The notes under the pieces were generated by a model. The model worked only from the letters and a program-made list of their open reading frames with translations, was not told the DNA's origin and made no database searches. This document shows positions 4,354 through 33,806 of a stretch of DNA of 37,468 bases, one piece after another; within the stretch, counting starts at the first letter, position 1; every line of letters begins with the position of its first letter. The translations under genes were made by a program, and so were the position numbers. The stretch spans positions 1 to 37,468 of the IMG/VR virus record IMGVR_UViG_3300046804_001349; one strand, given 5' to 3'. The DNA is from a virus.

Positions 4354-7300
4354 TGTTTGAAGATAAAGACCTGCAAAATTTCTTAGAAACTTCTCCAGTA
4401 ATAAGAAATAAATCAATCATAACTGCTGAATGGAATATGAATATTCCAACTAACATCAAGCATATAGGAAACTATAGATATCGTCCAACCAAGTCTGGCT
4501 CTATTTATTCTTCTTTGCCTACAAGTTTTGATATAAACGACATTGGTAATTTTTATACAGACGCAACTGACGCAGACGTAGAGATAGATGGAACATTTGA
4601 TGACAGCGATGTGCCAACAACCCTTAGACCTAAAAAAGAAAAACTTAAAACTCTTTATTCTTTAGAAGATTGTTTTGCACAATTTAGACCTAGGTCTGGA
4701 ATTAATAAAGCAGTATTTTTTGAAAATGGAAAACTACACCATCCAAACCTAGTTATGGCAGATAGACCTAGATATTATATGCCAGATAAAGATGATAAAT
4801 TTAAATACTGGACATCATATAGAACAGAGTCTGGACAAGAATATGGAATTGCTTCACTAGTTCGTGGATCACAATATTCGATAGAAGATGCTTGTCCTTT
4901 TGTTGTTTATAAAGAAAAAATTCCAACAAACAGGGTGATTGTTAAAATGCAAACACATACTGGAACAGAAAACCTAGGTCCATTTTCTTCTCCTACAGGA
5001 TCTTTTGCAGACCCATTTTATGGAGAACTAAATCAAAAAACTCCTAGCAAATGGAAGATTCAATTTTTAAAAGAAGGAAATTGGGAAAATATAATATCAT
5101 TTGATCCAGCAGTTAAAAGAAGAGATGGTTCTTCTGTAATTAAAAGCGATGGCTATGTTGAAATTGCGTATGGTTTAATTGTTCCAGAAGAGTGGAGAGC
5201 GAACTTTGTTATAGCAGAAACATACACAACAGAACTTCTTTTGCCAGAACAGTCTGTAGTAGGTTATGCATATTTAATTAAAGAAAATGAAACAGATTTA
5301 GGAACCTACCATATTTGGAACGGTATAGATTATACTAAGTATTCCCCTAAGTACGGCTGGTATATACAAGATGAAACAGTGGATAGATTAACAAACTTTG
5401 TGACTGATGCAACATCTCCAGATGTATTTATTAATAAACTTGATGGCAAACAAAAGTTTAGAGAATTTGAATATATTAGTGGCATACGAGTTGTAGTAGA
5501 AACTATGAATGTAAAAGACTCTACATTTGATCTCCTTGAGATTTCTCCAAGATTGATTTTAAATGTCTCAGATAAAACGCTAGACTATTCTGTTAACAAA
5601 AGCGCATCTGACCTTGGACTATCTGGATTGCCAGTTGGACAATTAATTGCATCTAATGGAAGCATAGTAATATTTGATCACGATCAGGCTTTCAATTCTA
5701 ATAACTCAAATAGTATTATTGCTAAATATATTAATAGACATGTTCAGTTTAAATTTTACGAGGTTATTGTTGATGTAGATGGTTGGGACTATTACGTTCC
5801 AATTAAAACTCTATATTCAGATTCTTTTCCAAAACAAGATTTAATGACCAAGCAGGTTTCTATTTCTTTAAGAGACATGTACTGGTATCTTGAATCAATA
5901 AAGGCTCCTGAAATATTAATGACAGAGGTTTCTGTTAGTTCTGCTGTATCATTATTACTTGACCATATAGGATTTTCTAACTATACATTTAAACGAGTTG
6001 AAAATGAAAAAGAAGTAATTATTCCATACTTCTTTGTTGGGCCAGAACTTAGTGTTGCAGAAGTACTTCAAGACCTTGCTGTTTCAACACAGACAGCAAT
6101 GTTCTTTGATGAATATAATAATTTTGTAATGATGAGCAAAAATTATATAATGCCAACTGCAACACAAAGACCAACAACTTTTGCTCTTAAAGGTACAAAG
6201 GATTTTATAGAAGATAGAGAAATCAAAAATAAAAAAAATAAGCCAAAGTTGGCAAATGTTATTTCTGTATCAACACAAGAAAATTCGGTATACAACGATG
6301 GAGTAATTAATTATAGTACAAGATATATACAGCGATCTATAGGCTCTTTAAAGCAAGCAAGCCTTGTAGACAATGAAAGATACTATACATATAAGCCTGC
6401 ATTGCTTTGGGAAGTTTCTGGAACTCAAAACACTAAGTCAATAAATAATGAAGTAGCAACTCAGTCATCATATGTACTTAGTGCGATCCCTTTAAATTCA
6501 GATTTAACAGCAGATGTGCCACAGGTAAAAAACAATATCATTATTAATAATACAATGAGTCTTGGAGAGGCAGCGTACTGGATCACCAGATATAATGGAT
6601 ATTTTTATTCTCAAGGAGAAATTATAAAATATGATGCAGTTCAGTATAATGTCTCTGGTATCGGAAATGTTTGGATAACATCTACAGAAGATTATCAGTA
6701 TTACTTTTCAAAATTACCATTCAATGGAAAAATATACCCAACAGGCCTAGTAAGAATTTATTCTGAGCCAAAATATGTAGAGCAAAATGGTATAACGGTT
6801 TTACAAAATGGTGAAGTTGAAAAACATGGTCGTGGCCAATTTGGAACAAAGATTGTTGCACATAGTGCAGGCATAGCAGACTATTGGAAATCAGATGACA
6901 ATGTTAAGGGATGCTATATGTCATCTGAATATTTATTTGAAAAAGATTTAACCTTGCCTACAACAGCCGTTGCACCTTCTGGCAAACTTACTGCTTCTGG
7001 AATTTCATCAGATGCTCTTTCACGCACATCTAGCAGAAGTGGTCTTATTAAAAACTTTATGTCAACATCTTTTATAGGAGAGATCAGTACAGCAACTACA
7101 GTACAAAGTGGCACATTGCAGTCATCTGCACTATCTTTGACTGGACCAAACTTTACAACAAAAGAAAGTCCAAGAGATTTTATTTCATATGTTCATAAAC
7201 CTTTACAAGATAATAAATTTAAACATTTTGGAACTAGAATGAGAATTGTTGGTAAAATAGAAAATAGTGAAGACAGAGGACAAACATCAAACGGCTCGGC

Positions 7301-11616: not shown

Positions 11617-12104
11617 TACCAGGTAACAAAAAAGTTTGGTTCCTCAATGGAGACCTTGTAAGAATTCATCATATAAACAGATCCAATGGAATAATGTCTG
11701 TTTATAATATTACAAAAGATCAGATTGAAAGTTGTTTTATTAGTGATTTTAAAAATAAAAGAGAACGAGCATATACAGTTGGGCAGACTGCTGATTTAGT
11801 TAATCGTCATAAAAAATATATGCCATCATTAATGAAACGAGGAGTTATCCCATTTCCAACTGGATCACAAAAAGGTGGCGCTAGAGGTTTTCAGGTAAGA
11901 TCATATTATTCAGAATCGCAAGTAAAAGAGATTCGTGATATACTTGCTTCATATCATATTGGTAGACCAAGAAAAGATAAATTAATTACAAATGATATTA
12001 CGCCTAGTAAAGCAGAGTTGACACGAAGAATGGGCGATGGTATACTTACATATAGGAAAACAGAAGATGGACGATTTGTTCCAATTTGGAATGAATCTAT
12101 TTAA
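11562..12104 (+). CDS. MerR-like helix-turn-helix DNA-binding protein
   Basis: A 180-residue basic protein. ATG 11562 follows GGAGGGA (11553-11559); the in-frame ATG at 11511 lies deep in the previous gene. Residues about 70-130 (YTVGQTADLV ... FQVRSYYSESQVKEI) match a MerR/excisionase-type winged helix. The 134-140 segment GRPRKDK resembles an AT-hook core, which would suit an AT-rich genome. The N-terminal 60 residues are beta-rich, with a WFLNGDLVRIHH segment. It sits at the junction of the tail and replication modules, a sensible place for a regulator. Repressor versus activator cannot be told. Confidence 0.65.
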   Translation: MATKKGTIESEKYNESPVIPGNKKVWFLNGDLVRIHHINRSNGIMSVYNITKDQIESCFISDFKNKRERAYTVGQTADLVNRHKKYMPSLMKRGVIPFPTGSQKGGARGFQVRSYYSESQVKEIRDILASYHIGRPRKDKLITNDITPSKAELTRRMGDGILTYRKTEDGRFVPIWNESI

Positions 12105-25359: not shown

Positions 25360-26499
25360 ATGAAATCATTTAAGAAAATCGCTCTAGCCGTGGTTGCAGC
25401 CATGACTACCGCAACAATCGTGGCTTCGCCTGCAAGCGCAGCCGTAATGACAGTCGCTGTATCGCTTGACGGAACTGCTAATACAACAGCATCCGCAATT
25501 GCTACACCTGCCTCATTACCAGTTCCAGCAGACAACACAATCGACGCTGCTGATGCACTCAAGTTTGTTGCAACTGTTGATACAGGAACAAATGTTTCTG
25601 TTACAGCAACAAACGCAACAATTGTTTCTGCACTACACACATCTGCTGCACCAGTAGGTGCTGCATCAGGATCGTCATCGTTGACAATCGCAACTGGTAC
25701 AGGAACAACCGCAACATTTTGGGTCTACACAAAGACTACAGCAATTGGTACAGTTGTAATCAATAACGGTGGAACAACTCTTACATACTATGTACAGGGT
25801 ACTGCTGGTAAGATTAACAACCTAACTGTATCTGCACCTGCAACTGGTGCTGCTGGCACAAAGCAGGATATTACAGTTACAGCAACAGACGTATTTGGAA
25901 ACAAGGTTTCTGGTAAGTCAATTACTGCAACAGTATTTGCTGCTACAGCAACACTAGATACAGCAACAGCAACAACTGGTGCTACACTTTCAGATTTTGG
26001 AGTTGCAAAGTTTACTGCAACACTTCCAGCAACTGGTTCACGCACACTAATTACATTTGCTCCAACAACATCTTCTGATGCAACATCTGCAGATGTAACT
26101 GGTCTAACTGCTCGTACACTTGCACCATTTGCAGAAATCACAGTTCGTGATCTTGTATCAGAACTTGCTGCTGAAAAGGCTGCTAAGGATGCAGCACTTG
26201 CTGCTAAGGCAGTTTCAGATGCTGCAGTCGTAAAGGCTGCTGCTGATGCTGCTGCTGCTAAGGTTGCTTCAGATGCTGCTCTTGCAGCAGAAAAGGCTGC
26301 TTCTGCTAAGGCACTTGCTGATGCAAAGACTGCTTCTGATGCAGCACTTGCAAAGGCAATTGCTGACAAGGATGCACAGATCGCTAAGTTGACAGCAGAT
26401 AATTCTGCAGCACTTAAGTCAATCAAGGATGCTTTCAACGCACTTGCAAAGAAGTGGAATGCAAAGAATCCAAAGGCAAAGGTTACTTTGGTTAAGTAA
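25360..26499 (+). CDS. Secreted Ig-like surface protein with Ala-rich coiled coil
   Basis: A 379-residue exported protein. The signal peptide is clear: MKSFKK, a hydrophobic core and cleavage near SPASA (residue 27). Then comes a Thr/Ala-rich beta region (28-140), an invasin/Big-type Ig-like domain (about 145-250; DITVTATDVFGNKVSGKSI), an Ala/Lys/Asp coiled coil (about 265-365) and a basic C-terminus. There is no LPXTG or transmembrane anchor. Lysine is AAG throughout except two codons in the signal peptide, and G+C is higher than its neighbours, suggesting high expression or capture from a host surface-protein gene. It has its own promoter and a strong terminator, so it is a single-gene transcription unit. 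Confidence 0.8.
   Translation: MKSFKKIALAVVAAMTTATIVASPASAAVMTVAVSLDGTANTTASAIATPASLPVPADNTIDAADALKFVATVDTGTNVSVTATNATIVSALHTSAAPVGAASGSSSLTIATGTGTTATFWVYTKTTAIGTVVINNGGTTLTYYVQGTAGKINNLTVSAPATGAAGTKQDITVTATDVFGNKVSGKSITATVFAATATLDTATATTGATLSDFGVAKFTATLPATGSRTLITFAPTTSSDATSADVTGLTARTLAPFAEITVRDLVSELAAEKAAKDAALAAKAVSDAAVVKAAADAAAAKVASDAALAAEKAASAKALADAKTASDAALAKAIADKDAQIAKLTADNSAALKSIKDAFNALAKKWNAKNPKAKVTLVK
26160..26400 (+). repeat. Degenerate Ala/Lys codon repeats in the surface-protein gene
   Basis: Repeated GCTGCT, GATGCT and GCTAAG blocks encode an alternating Ala-rich heptad helix (KAASAKAL, KTASDAAL and similar). The repeats are imperfect, and they generate the long open frame on the opposite strand. 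Confidence 0.7.
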
Positions 26500-26514
26500 T
26501 TAATCCAACAACTG

Positions 26515-26548
26515 GGGGAGTGGGGTAACCTGCTCCCCTTTTTGTTTT
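26515..26548 (+). terminator. Strong intrinsic terminator with GNRA tetraloop
   Basis: A 10-bp stem (26515-26524 pairing with 26529-26538, two G-U pairs) closes a GTAA tetraloop and is followed by TTTTTGTTTT. It ends the surface-protein transcript, 10 bases before the next promoter. Confidence 0.9.
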
Positions 26549-26554
26549 AGGAAA

Positions 26555-26563
26555 TGGTATAAT
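26555..26563 (+). promoter_or_regulatory. Extended -10 promoter, leaderless start of 26570 gene
   Basis: TGG followed by TATAAT, then 6 bases, then ATG. There is no recognisable -35 because the terminator occupies that position, and no Shine-Dalgarno sequence. The predicted +1 is the A of the ATG. Confidence 0.65.
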
Positions 26564-26569
26564 TAAAAT

Positions 26570-27145
26570 ATGTTTGATTTAATAAAAGAAGCAAAAGAAA
26601 ATAGTCACGAAATAGTGTTTGAACAATACCAGTTGCCACAAATAAACTGGGAAGATATGATGAAATACATATATAAAGAATCAACAGTATTTAATAGGAA
26701 CCTTCGTGATAAAGTTGAAAAAGTAAACAATCTTGAAGTATTGGACTTTATTGGTAATATACAACTTCAAAGCAAGTTTTGGTTAGCACCACAAAACCCT
26801 AATCTTTTTGATGAATTGCCTGGAATATCAGAACTACTACTTAAGTTAAATAATGGCATAGACAACAGAAACTGTAGTTATTATAAAAAAATGAACCACG
26901 ATTGCTCCTCTGATTGGCATCCACAAGGAATAAGGATGTCCTTATCAAACAGGCTTGTAAGCGATCACCATGATCCACACGATATCTTTTACTGGCAAAT
27001 ACTTGGAACATCATTTTGGAAGATAGATGGTGGCATAACTTATGAGTTAAAGCCAGGAGATATGCTTTATTTACCACTTGAAAATTCACACGAAGTTTGG
27101 TGTGACGGTCCTAGGGCTGGTTTGTTGATTGATAATCTTAATTAA
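26570..27145 (+). CDS. JmjC/cupin-type 2-oxoglutarate oxygenase-like protein
   Basis: A 191-residue protein with the cupin/JmjC metal pattern: an HxD (H133-x-D135 in SDHHDPHD), a following IFYWQILGTSFWKIDGG strand, KPGDMLYLP, and a distal His (H174 in NSHEVW). In this family the metal hydroxylates protein or small-molecule substrates with 2-oxoglutarate and oxygen. The first 90 residues are helical and unfamiliar. It is preceded by a terminator and a leaderless promoter, so it is independently expressed. The substrate cannot be inferred. A second, unrelated-looking oxygenase lies at 32376-32933. Confidence 0.65.
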   Translation: MFDLIKEAKENSHEIVFEQYQLPQINWEDMMKYIYKESTVFNRNLRDKVEKVNNLEVLDFIGNIQLQSKFWLAPQNPNLFDELPGISELLLKLNNGIDNRNCSYYKKMNHDCSSDWHPQGIRMSLSNRLVSDHHDPHDIFYWQILGTSFWKIDGGITYELKPGDMLYLPLENSHEVWCDGPRAGLLIDNLN

Positions 27146-29512: not shown

Positions 29513-29809
29513 ATGGCAAGAAAGAAGGTAGAAGTTATTGAAGAGCCAACACATGTAGGCGGTGGCGCAATTGCAAGCATTAATAATATTGTTATGCGTA
29601 TTGTTGCAGTTTTTGCAGCATCAGGCCTATCTGTTATCGGTGCAGGTGCAGTAGTTGGAATTAGTACAGTTAAGGCTGTTATTCTTGCAGGTACTCTTGG
29701 AGTAGCCACAGTAGTTGAAAGACTGGCTCGTGGATTCCTAGACGATGGCAAACTAACTATTGATGAGATTAATAATGCGTTTAATTCAGTAGATAAAAAG
29801 GCTAATTAG
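29513..29809 (+). CDS. Putative holin-like membrane protein
   Basis: A 98-residue protein. ATG 29513 has AAAGGAGG upstream; the longer frame from 29408 overlaps the previous gene widely. After a charged N-terminus come two hydrophobic, Gly/Ala-rich segments (about 26-52 and 54-70), then a soluble tail (ERLARGFLDDGKLTIDEINNAF) that looks EF-hand-like but lacks a full loop. The tandem arrangement with the previous gene suggests a holin/antiholin pair or a small membrane complex. This is inference. Confidence 0.6.
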   Translation: MARKKVEVIEEPTHVGGGAIASINNIVMRIVAVFAASGLSVIGAGAVVGISTVKAVILAGTLGVATVVERLARGFLDDGKLTIDEINNAFNSVDKKAN

Positions 29810-29825
29810 TCATTATTTACCATAG

Positions 29826-29855
29826 TTGACAGCCCTCTCTGGGTAATGGTATACT
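29826..29855 (+). promoter_or_regulatory. Consensus promoter for the Ntn-hydrolase gene, embedded in a hairpin
   Basis: TTGACA (29826-29831), 18-base spacer, TGG-extended TATACT (29850-29855). The predicted start is near 29862, giving a 24-base leader. The -10 box is half of a dyad, TATACT-TG-AGTATA (29850-29863), a possible operator. Confidence 0.75.
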
Positions 29856-29884
29856 TGAGTATATCTATCTGGAGAGGGCTTTTG
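29831..29884 (+). promoter_or_regulatory. Long hairpin overlapping promoter and ribosome binding site
   Basis: AGCCCTCTC (29831-29839) pairs perfectly with GAGAGGGCT (29872-29880) across a 32-base loop, followed by a short T run. The 3' arm contains the GGAGAGGG ribosome binding site for ATG 29886. RNA read through from upstream can form the hairpin; RNA started at the local promoter lacks the 5' arm. It may also act as a weak terminator. Confidence 0.6.
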
Positions 29885-29885
29885 C

Positions 29886-30410
29886 ATGACTTGTATTGCT
29901 GCAGTAAAACACGAAGGTAAAATTTATATGGCTGGAGATCGTGGTGCTTCAGATGATGGTACTATTTTAGCACTTGATGCCCCAAAAGTTTGGAAGATTG
30001 GTTCATATCTAATTGGTTATGCAGGAGCAATGGATGGAGAAAGAATTCGTTATAATTTTAAACCATCTGCACCAAATATTAAAGATACTGATAAATTCAT
30101 GCAAACAAAATTTGTTAAAGAGTTGCGTGATTTTTATAATGAGTTTTGGGTAGATACATCCAAAGATGGAGATTTAGGTTTAATAGTAGCGGTTCGTGGA
30201 GAAATTTATGAACACAGTTCTGCAGATATGTCCTTATCTAAATATACTCTTCCATATTTAGCAATTGGTTCAGGAGCAGAGTATGCATATGGAGTTCTTT
30301 ATGCAACCGATAAACAAAAAAATGCAAGAAATAGAGTTATGCAAGCAGTAAATGCTGCTATTAAATTTAACCCAGCATGTATGGGTCCAGTTGACATCGT
30401 AAGCCTATAG
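29886..30410 (+). CDS. Proteasome-beta/HslV-like Ntn hydrolase
   Basis: A 174-residue protein, the same length class as HslV. After removal of Met1 the N-terminus is Thr. Thr1, Asp17 (in AGDRG) and Lys33 (in DAPKVWKIG) then fall exactly at the canonical positions of the proteasome beta catalytic triad. A GYAGAMDGER segment matches the oxyanion-loop region, and AIGSGAEYAYGVLYA is typical of the family. It should be a threonine peptidase or a related amidase. No unfoldase gene is visible nearby, so it would need a host ATPase or act alone. Expression appears controlled by the hairpin-embedded promoter. Confidence 0.8.
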   Translation: MTCIAAVKHEGKIYMAGDRGASDDGTILALDAPKVWKIGSYLIGYAGAMDGERIRYNFKPSAPNIKDTDKFMQTKFVKELRDFYNEFWVDTSKDGDLGLIVAVRGEIYEHSSADMSLSKYTLPYLAIGSGAEYAYGVLYATDKQKNARNRVMQAVNAAIKFNPACMGPVDIVSL

Positions 30411-30419
30411 GAGTATACT
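30391..30419 (+). promoter_or_regulatory. Consensus promoter, leaderless start of 30426 gene
   Basis: TTGACA (30391-30396), 17-base spacer, TATACT (30414-30419), then 6 bases and ATG 30426. This is the clearest leaderless promoter in the window: both hexamers are near consensus, and there is no ribosome binding site. Confidence 0.75.
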
Positions 30420-30425
30420 TTTATT

Positions 30426-30644
30426 ATGAGCGAAGATTTTGAAGAAATTTTAAAGGGTATGCAGGATTCGGAATCAGATTTCAATGAGTTTGAAATTTGG
30501 CTTGATAATGGAATTCAGCGGGGATGGGTAACAGAACCATTCTGTAATACTCATGAAGGTGACCCATATATGACAGAAGAAGAAGAGCAAGAGTGGGAAT
30601 CAGGTGGTGACCCATGCCAATTAGTTTTAAAAATCAAACAATAA
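30426..30644 (+). CDS. Small acidic hypothetical protein
   Basis: A 72-residue, very acidic protein (over a quarter Asp/Glu), with FEIWLDNGIQRGWVTEPFCNTHEGDP in the middle and an EEEEQEW stretch. I recall similar short proteins with a WVSEPFC.TH.G-type motif from actinophages, without known function; the Cys/His pair could hold a metal. The start is fixed by the leaderless promoter. It may work as a DNA mimic because of its charge, but this is only a guess. Confidence 0.65.
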   Translation: MSEDFEEILKGMQDSESDFNEFEIWLDNGIQRGWVTEPFCNTHEGDPYMTEEEEQEWESGGDPCQLVLKIKQ

Positions 30645-33017: not shown

Positions 33018-33806
33018 ATGGCAGATAAAGGTACAAGAGCACTTCTTCTAGAAATCATTCAGAAAGAAGTTGGAACCGTAGAAGGTCCAAAAGATAATGA
33101 AACAAAGTATGGAGCATACACAAAGGCAAACTTCCTTCCATGGTGTGGCTCATTCGTGAATTGGTCAGCAAATCAGGCTGGCGTAAAGGTTCCAAATACA
33201 GTTTATACACCAGCAGGTGTAGCAGCATTTAAGAAGGCTGGCAAGTGGGTTCCTGTTAAGGGTAATAAGCCACAGGCTGGTTGGGTAGTTTATTTTGATT
33301 TCCCTGGCGGAAGAGACATTGACCATGTTGGTTGGGTACTAAAGGACAACGGCGATGGAACTGCTTGGTGTATTGAAGGAAATACATCTGCAGATGGCAA
33401 AAAGGGATCACAATCAAATGGTGGAGAGTGTGCAAAGAAACTTCGTGCATATGGTCCAAACAAGAAGAACCTTCCAGTATTTATTGCAGGTTATGGCGTA
33501 GTAGATTATCCTGATGCAGACACTCCAGTAATTCCAACGCTTGAAGAAAAGAAGGTTGCACTTGCTGAAGTTGCAAAGTCACAGGGCGTAGAAGTACCAG
33601 CAGTAAAACTATTTAAGCCTTTTAAGATTGGTGCAAAAGGAAATTCTGTAAAGACCATTCAGGTAGCATTAGGAGTTAAGCCAGCAGAGGGTAACTTCGG
33701 ACCAATAACAGATAAGGCTGTTAAGGCTTTTCAAAAGAAAGAAGGCCTACCAGTAAACGGTATTGTTGATGAAGAAACTTATCGCAGAATTAAGGGCGTA
33801 AAGTAA
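33018..33806 (+). CDS. Endolysin: CHAP domain plus peptidoglycan-binding domain
   Basis: A 262-residue lysin. The N-terminal CHAP amidase/endopeptidase shows C43 (PWCGSFVNW), H103 (DIDHVGWV) and E120/N122 (CIEGNTS). A short linker leads to a PG_binding_1 domain (about 195-262; GAKGNSVKTIQVAL, FGPITDKAVKAFQ, GIVDEETYRRI). There is no signal peptide, so export depends on a holin. It is driven by one of the strongest promoters here with a perfect ribosome binding site. The next gene, a membrane protein, starts on the base after the stop. Confidence 0.92.
   Translation: MADKGTRALLLEIIQKEVGTVEGPKDNETKYGAYTKANFLPWCGSFVNWSANQAGVKVPNTVYTPAGVAAFKKAGKWVPVKGNKPQAGWVVYFDFPGGRDIDHVGWVLKDNGDGTAWCIEGNTSADGKKGSQSNGGECAKKLRAYGPNKKNLPVFIAGYGVVDYPDADTPVIPTLEEKKVALAEVAKSQGVEVPAVKLFKPFKIGAKGNSVKTIQVALGVKPAEGNFGPITDKAVKAFQKKEGLPVNGIVDEETYRRIKGVK

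Follow-up and report, generated by a model that had tools for sequence, protein, structure and literature searches.

The window analysed here, a 37,468-nt stretch of DNA (positions 1 to 37,468 of IMG/VR virus record IMGVR_UViG_3300046804_001349), is one piece of a large phage genome. Its + strand carries at 29886-30410 a gene for an HslV/proteasome-like protein of 174 amino acids with a Met-Thr-Cys start, which matches Pfam PF00227 (E 9.5e-6) and phrog_1040, "peptidase HslV family" (E 1.3e-22); phage proteasome homologues (PPH) are a described group (PMC8665760). The genes upstream lie on the same strand, including a small gene at 29513-29809 that is the presumed source of read-through RNA and whose stop codon (29807-29809) falls 16 nt before a TTGACA box, while downstream follow a small gene, a protease-like gene, and an endolysin at 33018. 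Relatives of the HslV-like gene were encoded in 520 viral contig stretches, and a search of bacterial genomes returned none. The fetched stretches gave 73 distinct upstream sequences, of which one (L025, with a gene inserted in the module) was set aside and 72 were counted. These come from ~70 uncultured freshwater phages.

A promoter match within a predicted hairpin

Just ahead of the HslV-like gene, the first-pass annotation had placed a consensus promoter within a hairpin, and we found it as described: TTGACA at 29826-29831, an 18-bp spacer, and TATACT at 29850-29855 preceded by TGG (extended -10, 29847-29855), i.e., a sigma-70-type promoter with an extended -10. Matches of this kind number four in the window against 0.18 expected. 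We infer promoter activity from these boxes, and the position of the -10 box predicts a local transcription start at 29861-29863; this predicted spacing (6-7 nt from the -10) also fits predicted leaderless genes of these phages.

RNA folding of the + strand predicted a 22-bp hairpin of -30.2 kcal/mol, in which a basal stem of 15 bp (29831-29845 with 29866-29880) and an apical stem of 7 bp (29848-29854 with 29859-29865, loop TTGA, or UUGA in RNA) are separated by a two-base bulge and four of the pairs are G-U. The pairing claimed earlier, of AGCCCTCTC (29831-29839) with GAGAGGGCT (29872-29880), is indeed perfectly complementary and was understated, these arms being the base of the longer hairpin; of 20,000 random 19-mers of the window, 30 could pair with the downstream stretch over a perfect run of 9 bp. 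The fold has a z-score of -6.0, its energy was reached by none of 200 shuffles, and it ranked first both among the 59-nt windows of the + strand and among the tested start-codon regions (runner-up, -22.2). The - strand version of the region folds more weakly (-18.9 kcal/mol) because four of the + strand pairs are G-U. Scanned against Rfam, the window had no match above the gathering score.

Promoter and hairpin are interleaved. The last A of TTGACA is the outermost base of the hairpin; the 5' arm of the basal stem (AGCCCTCTCTGGGTA, 29831-29845) fills the -35/-10 spacer, is complementary to the Shine-Dalgarno sequence, and would be missing from locally started RNA; and positions 29848-29854 of the extended -10 double as the 5' side of the apical stem, whose predicted 3' side is 29859-29865. 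By sequence, fold, and comparison with relatives, the 3' arm of the basal stem (29866-29880) contains the ribosome-binding site GGAGAGGG (29871-29878), with GGAG/GAGGG inside the arm. Since only 5 nt separate the hairpin from the ATG, the sole ribosome-binding site of the HslV-like gene lies in this arm. In the read-through leader, no in-frame start codon was found between the ribosome site and the upstream in-frame stop, only a GTA/TAT run without a start.

Pairing and covariation among relatives

A strong hairpin was predicted in 69 of the 72 distinct relatives. The three others (L013, L029, and L031) retain the promoter with a weak hairpin, so the hairpin appears dispensable in some lineages. 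TTGACA is invariant in 72/72, though only its last A lies within the stem, and TATACT is present in 71/72. The TATACT/AGTATA dyad reported in the first-pass annotation is present within the apical stem but was conserved only in part: its inner A-U pairs are near-invariant, and the closing C-G is broken in 28/72 relatives.

Compensatory change between the arms, proposed earlier as something to look for in relatives, was found, the second pair having switched from G-C to C-G, several pairs from U-A to C-G, and each arm having a matching one-base deletion. Standard pairs occupied 93.1% of the pair cells of the 72 relatives, compared with 41-55% when partners were slid, and double-sided changes numbered 43 versus 13.5 in shuffles. 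The covariation score was 0.230 versus 0.177 +/- 0.007, with none of 500 shuffles as high, while, of five count measures, two (the number of pairs showing a double change and that of pair types) were not above shuffles. Own arms beat swapped arms by only ~3 kcal/mol on average. The relatives' HslV-like proteins are ~79-100% identical and recombination among them is possible, so these arm changes are not all independent events.

The kind of mismatch that is tolerated bears on which molecule has been selected. Thirty arm haplotypes comprised 278 Watson-Crick, 85 G-U, 9 A-C, and 18 other cells, whereas their column shuffles gave 85 G-U, 24 A-C, and 62 other. Because an A-C on the + strand is a G-U on the - strand, the tolerance of G-U together with the depletion of A-C points to selection on sense-strand RNA at the hairpin; as the 5' arm is absent from locally started RNA, the RNA under selection would then have to be the read-through RNA.

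Each genome has one module, always at the HslV-like gene, with the exception of one genome with an inserted gene; further copies were sought in 18 genomes and none was seen except this insertion derivative. There (L025, 285-1110), a foreign gene is flanked by a complete promoter-hairpin on one side and, before the HslV-like gene, by a partial second copy, and the insertion looks as if it was made with duplication of the 3' half of the module.

Proposed read-through silencing and its rivals

Predicted folds of both transcript forms bear out the earlier proposal that read-through RNA hides the ribosome site and local RNA cannot. The site is paired in the predicted read-through fold, and the conserved boxes put the predicted start beyond the 5' arm, leaving local RNA without it. 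Across the 72 relatives, opening the start region was predicted to cost a median of 17.9 kcal/mol for read-through RNA versus 6.3 kcal/mol for local RNA, and the difference (read-through minus local) exceeded 3 kcal/mol in 70/72. Read-through is to be expected, as the upstream stop codon lies 8-20 nt ahead of TTGACA whichever of about four different upstream genes precedes the module, and an upstream ribosome terminating there should not reach the stem.

In the model that we favour, a sigma-70-type promoter would lie within an inverted repeat, with the ribosome site contained in the 3' arm and the promoter spacer filled by the 5' arm. RNA entering from the upstream genes would carry both arms, form a hairpin of 20-22 bp, and give no HslV-like protein, whereas locally started RNA would begin past the 5' arm, form no hairpin, and be translated; the gene would respond to its own promoter only, ignoring the adjacent operon. 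We put at about 0.7 the probability that such a read-through-proof promoter-hairpin explains the module, and we infer the translational repression of read-through RNA from the modelled folds.

A second function on top of this one would be termination, with the hairpin partly releasing upstream transcripts and hiding the ribosome site on RNA that escapes. The short U-run after the stem is compatible with partial release and both effects would act in the same direction; the U-run is, however, unconserved while the pairing is conserved, and we regard this combination as possible but rather doubtful. Its likelihood and that given above for the hairpin switch overlap, as the combination includes the switch.

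That the hairpin is instead the intrinsic terminator of the upstream operon at ~29880, overlapping the next promoter and hiding the ribosome site as a by-product, we consider unlikely. A GC-rich stem at an operon's end runs straight into UUUU or UUUGU, and these phages do put terminators right before promoters, the strong terminator followed directly by an extended -10 promoter at ~26494-26570 of the window, and near 4771 and 116453 of the 119-kb relative G006, being a recurring boundary design. Yet of the hallmarks of an intrinsic terminator, the GC-rich hairpin is found here and a conserved U-rich tract is not. Post-stem sequences among relatives are UUUUGCC, UUUGUC, UCUGUC, or UUCUACC, with only 3-5 U per 8 nt in all 72, and the tails UCUGUC, UUCUACC, and UACCCAAC (the last in L025) keep the stem and lose the U-run, whereas clear terminators of these phages carry TTTTTGTTTT, TTTTTTGTTT, TTTTATTAT, or TTTCTGTTT. 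Nor does termination account for a stem that always covers both the ribosome site and the promoter spacer. Because the U-run is short and unconserved, termination would be at most partial.

It is quite improbable that the hairpin is opened in trans, by a phage protein, a small RNA, or an RNase that switches the read-through RNA on at some stage; no conserved unpaired sequence was noticed beyond the loop TTRA, which is itself set by the -10 box. The long dyad surrounding the promoter would also suit an operator or an extruded cruciform controlling that promoter, but such a DNA-level element is extremely improbable and was rejected on the asymmetry between G-U (common in the stem) and A-C (depleted), a difference to which DNA pairing is blind, and the weaker - strand fold likewise speaks against it.

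Timing, similar modules, and known systems

The first-pass annotation had also assigned to this locus the logic of T4 genes e and soc. The hiding mechanism held up, given the folds, the covariation, and a T4 e control of the same layout, but the timing did not: the local promoter of the HslV-like gene does not fit a T4-type late promoter (TATAAATA) and is of the host sigma-70 type, so that timing is, if anything, reversed relative to T4. In G006, promoters of the structural-gene strand and of the 80-119 kb block are mostly extended -10 without a -35, and -35 boxes occur mainly in the minus-strand block, where several are TTGACA without the TG extension; the promoter of the HslV-like gene combines the -35 and the TG extension, features of both classes. 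A dedicated T4-like late motif was sought, and only the extended -10 class without a -35 was seen. Kayviruses have early promoters with -35 boxes and late ones without (PMC7698491). On these grounds the local promoter would be early or constitutive and the silenced read-through RNA late, the reverse of T4, which is the weakest step of our argument.

Several other promoter arrangements were observed along the way. The window at 30391-30428 contains a perfect TTGACA-17-TATACT ending 6 nt before ATG 30426, where local RNA would be leaderless and the promoter itself encloses the ribosome site (GGAG), which would occur only on read-through RNA, an arrangement of opposite logic to the hairpin of the HslV-like gene. 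Many -10 boxes in G006, and in the window near 26550-26570, stand exactly 6-7 nt before an ATG, which suggests widespread leaderless messages in the G006 phage group. Another perfect TTGACA-17-TATACT (window 12018-12046) lies in a coding frame and recurs in relatives; it may reflect coding constraint or an internal promoter.

Among the fetched loci, we surveyed 125 other promoters that stand before a gene led by a ribosome site. Seven had a spacer that pairs with that site (p <= 0.01), the present module's copy in L025 among them; with only 7/125, such pairing is not general to promoters. Promoters inside ribosome-site hairpins were seen in unrelated phages at L204 3864-3927, L316 821-885, and L145 8518-8572. 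In a Twort-like phage of Staphylococcus (L204/L319), as in Twort, TTGAC(A/G)-17-TATACT lies inside a ribosome-site stem of 13-14 bp, with paired changes between the two. Folding gave this pair -23.7 (z -6.6) and -22.6 (z -4.9) kcal/mol and the L145 case z -5.6, the values for L204 and L145 being selected ones because both were picked for high survey scores. This Twortvirinae module precedes an unrelated small gene (Twort ORF043 and its kayvirus orthologues), in Twort just behind a tail gene, and thus differs from the HslV-like module in both gene and host; in the kayvirus-like orthologues of ORF043, the hairpin is weaker (z -1.5 to -2.3). The Twort-like staphylococcal phages look like an independent case.

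Tentatively, and at somewhat less than even odds, a promoter within a hairpin may be a general device that phages have evolved repeatedly, with the free spacer of a sigma-70 promoter encoding an anti-Shine-Dalgarno arm and an early gene that follows late ones being silenced on late read-through RNA, the T4 logic reversed. The e/soc mechanism is a textbook case drawn from few T4-type genes; the present module would be a compact form of it that uses a host-type promoter and is maintained, as the covariation suggests, across many uncultured freshwater phages. If so, an anti-ribosome-site in a promoter spacer would be a sequence rule that marks read-through-insulated genes in raw sequence, and for such genes RNA abundance is predicted to misreport protein output.

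Related logic is known from a transposon. In IS10/Tn10, RNA reading in from outside folds and hides the ribosome site of the transposase, and local RNA escapes; that system differs in being a transposon end, in using an antisense RNA as well, and in not controlling a phage gene. Similar too are T4 I-TevI, I-TevII, I-TevIII, and segB and Aeh1 mobE, where an inhibitory structure forms on upstream transcripts only and the promoter lies adjacent or within (PMC2988022), but these encode homing endonucleases under middle or late promoters, with no HslV-like gene. A close likeness is that to T4 e (also soc and 49), where the arms flank the promoter, the 5' arm is missing from local RNA, the Shine-Dalgarno sequence is hidden on read-through RNA, and, for e, the hairpin lowers lysozyme synthesis ~100-fold (PMC3014915). 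Run through the same folding code, T4 e gave a stem of -14.9 kcal/mol with TATAAATA in the loop and the same layout, the stem described here being twice as stable. The two differ in that T4 uses late promoters (TATAAATA), whereas here the 5' arm occupies the spacer of a full sigma-70-type promoter with a -35 and an extended -10; neither the gene nor the phage is related to that of the T4 case, and the timing is probably reversed.
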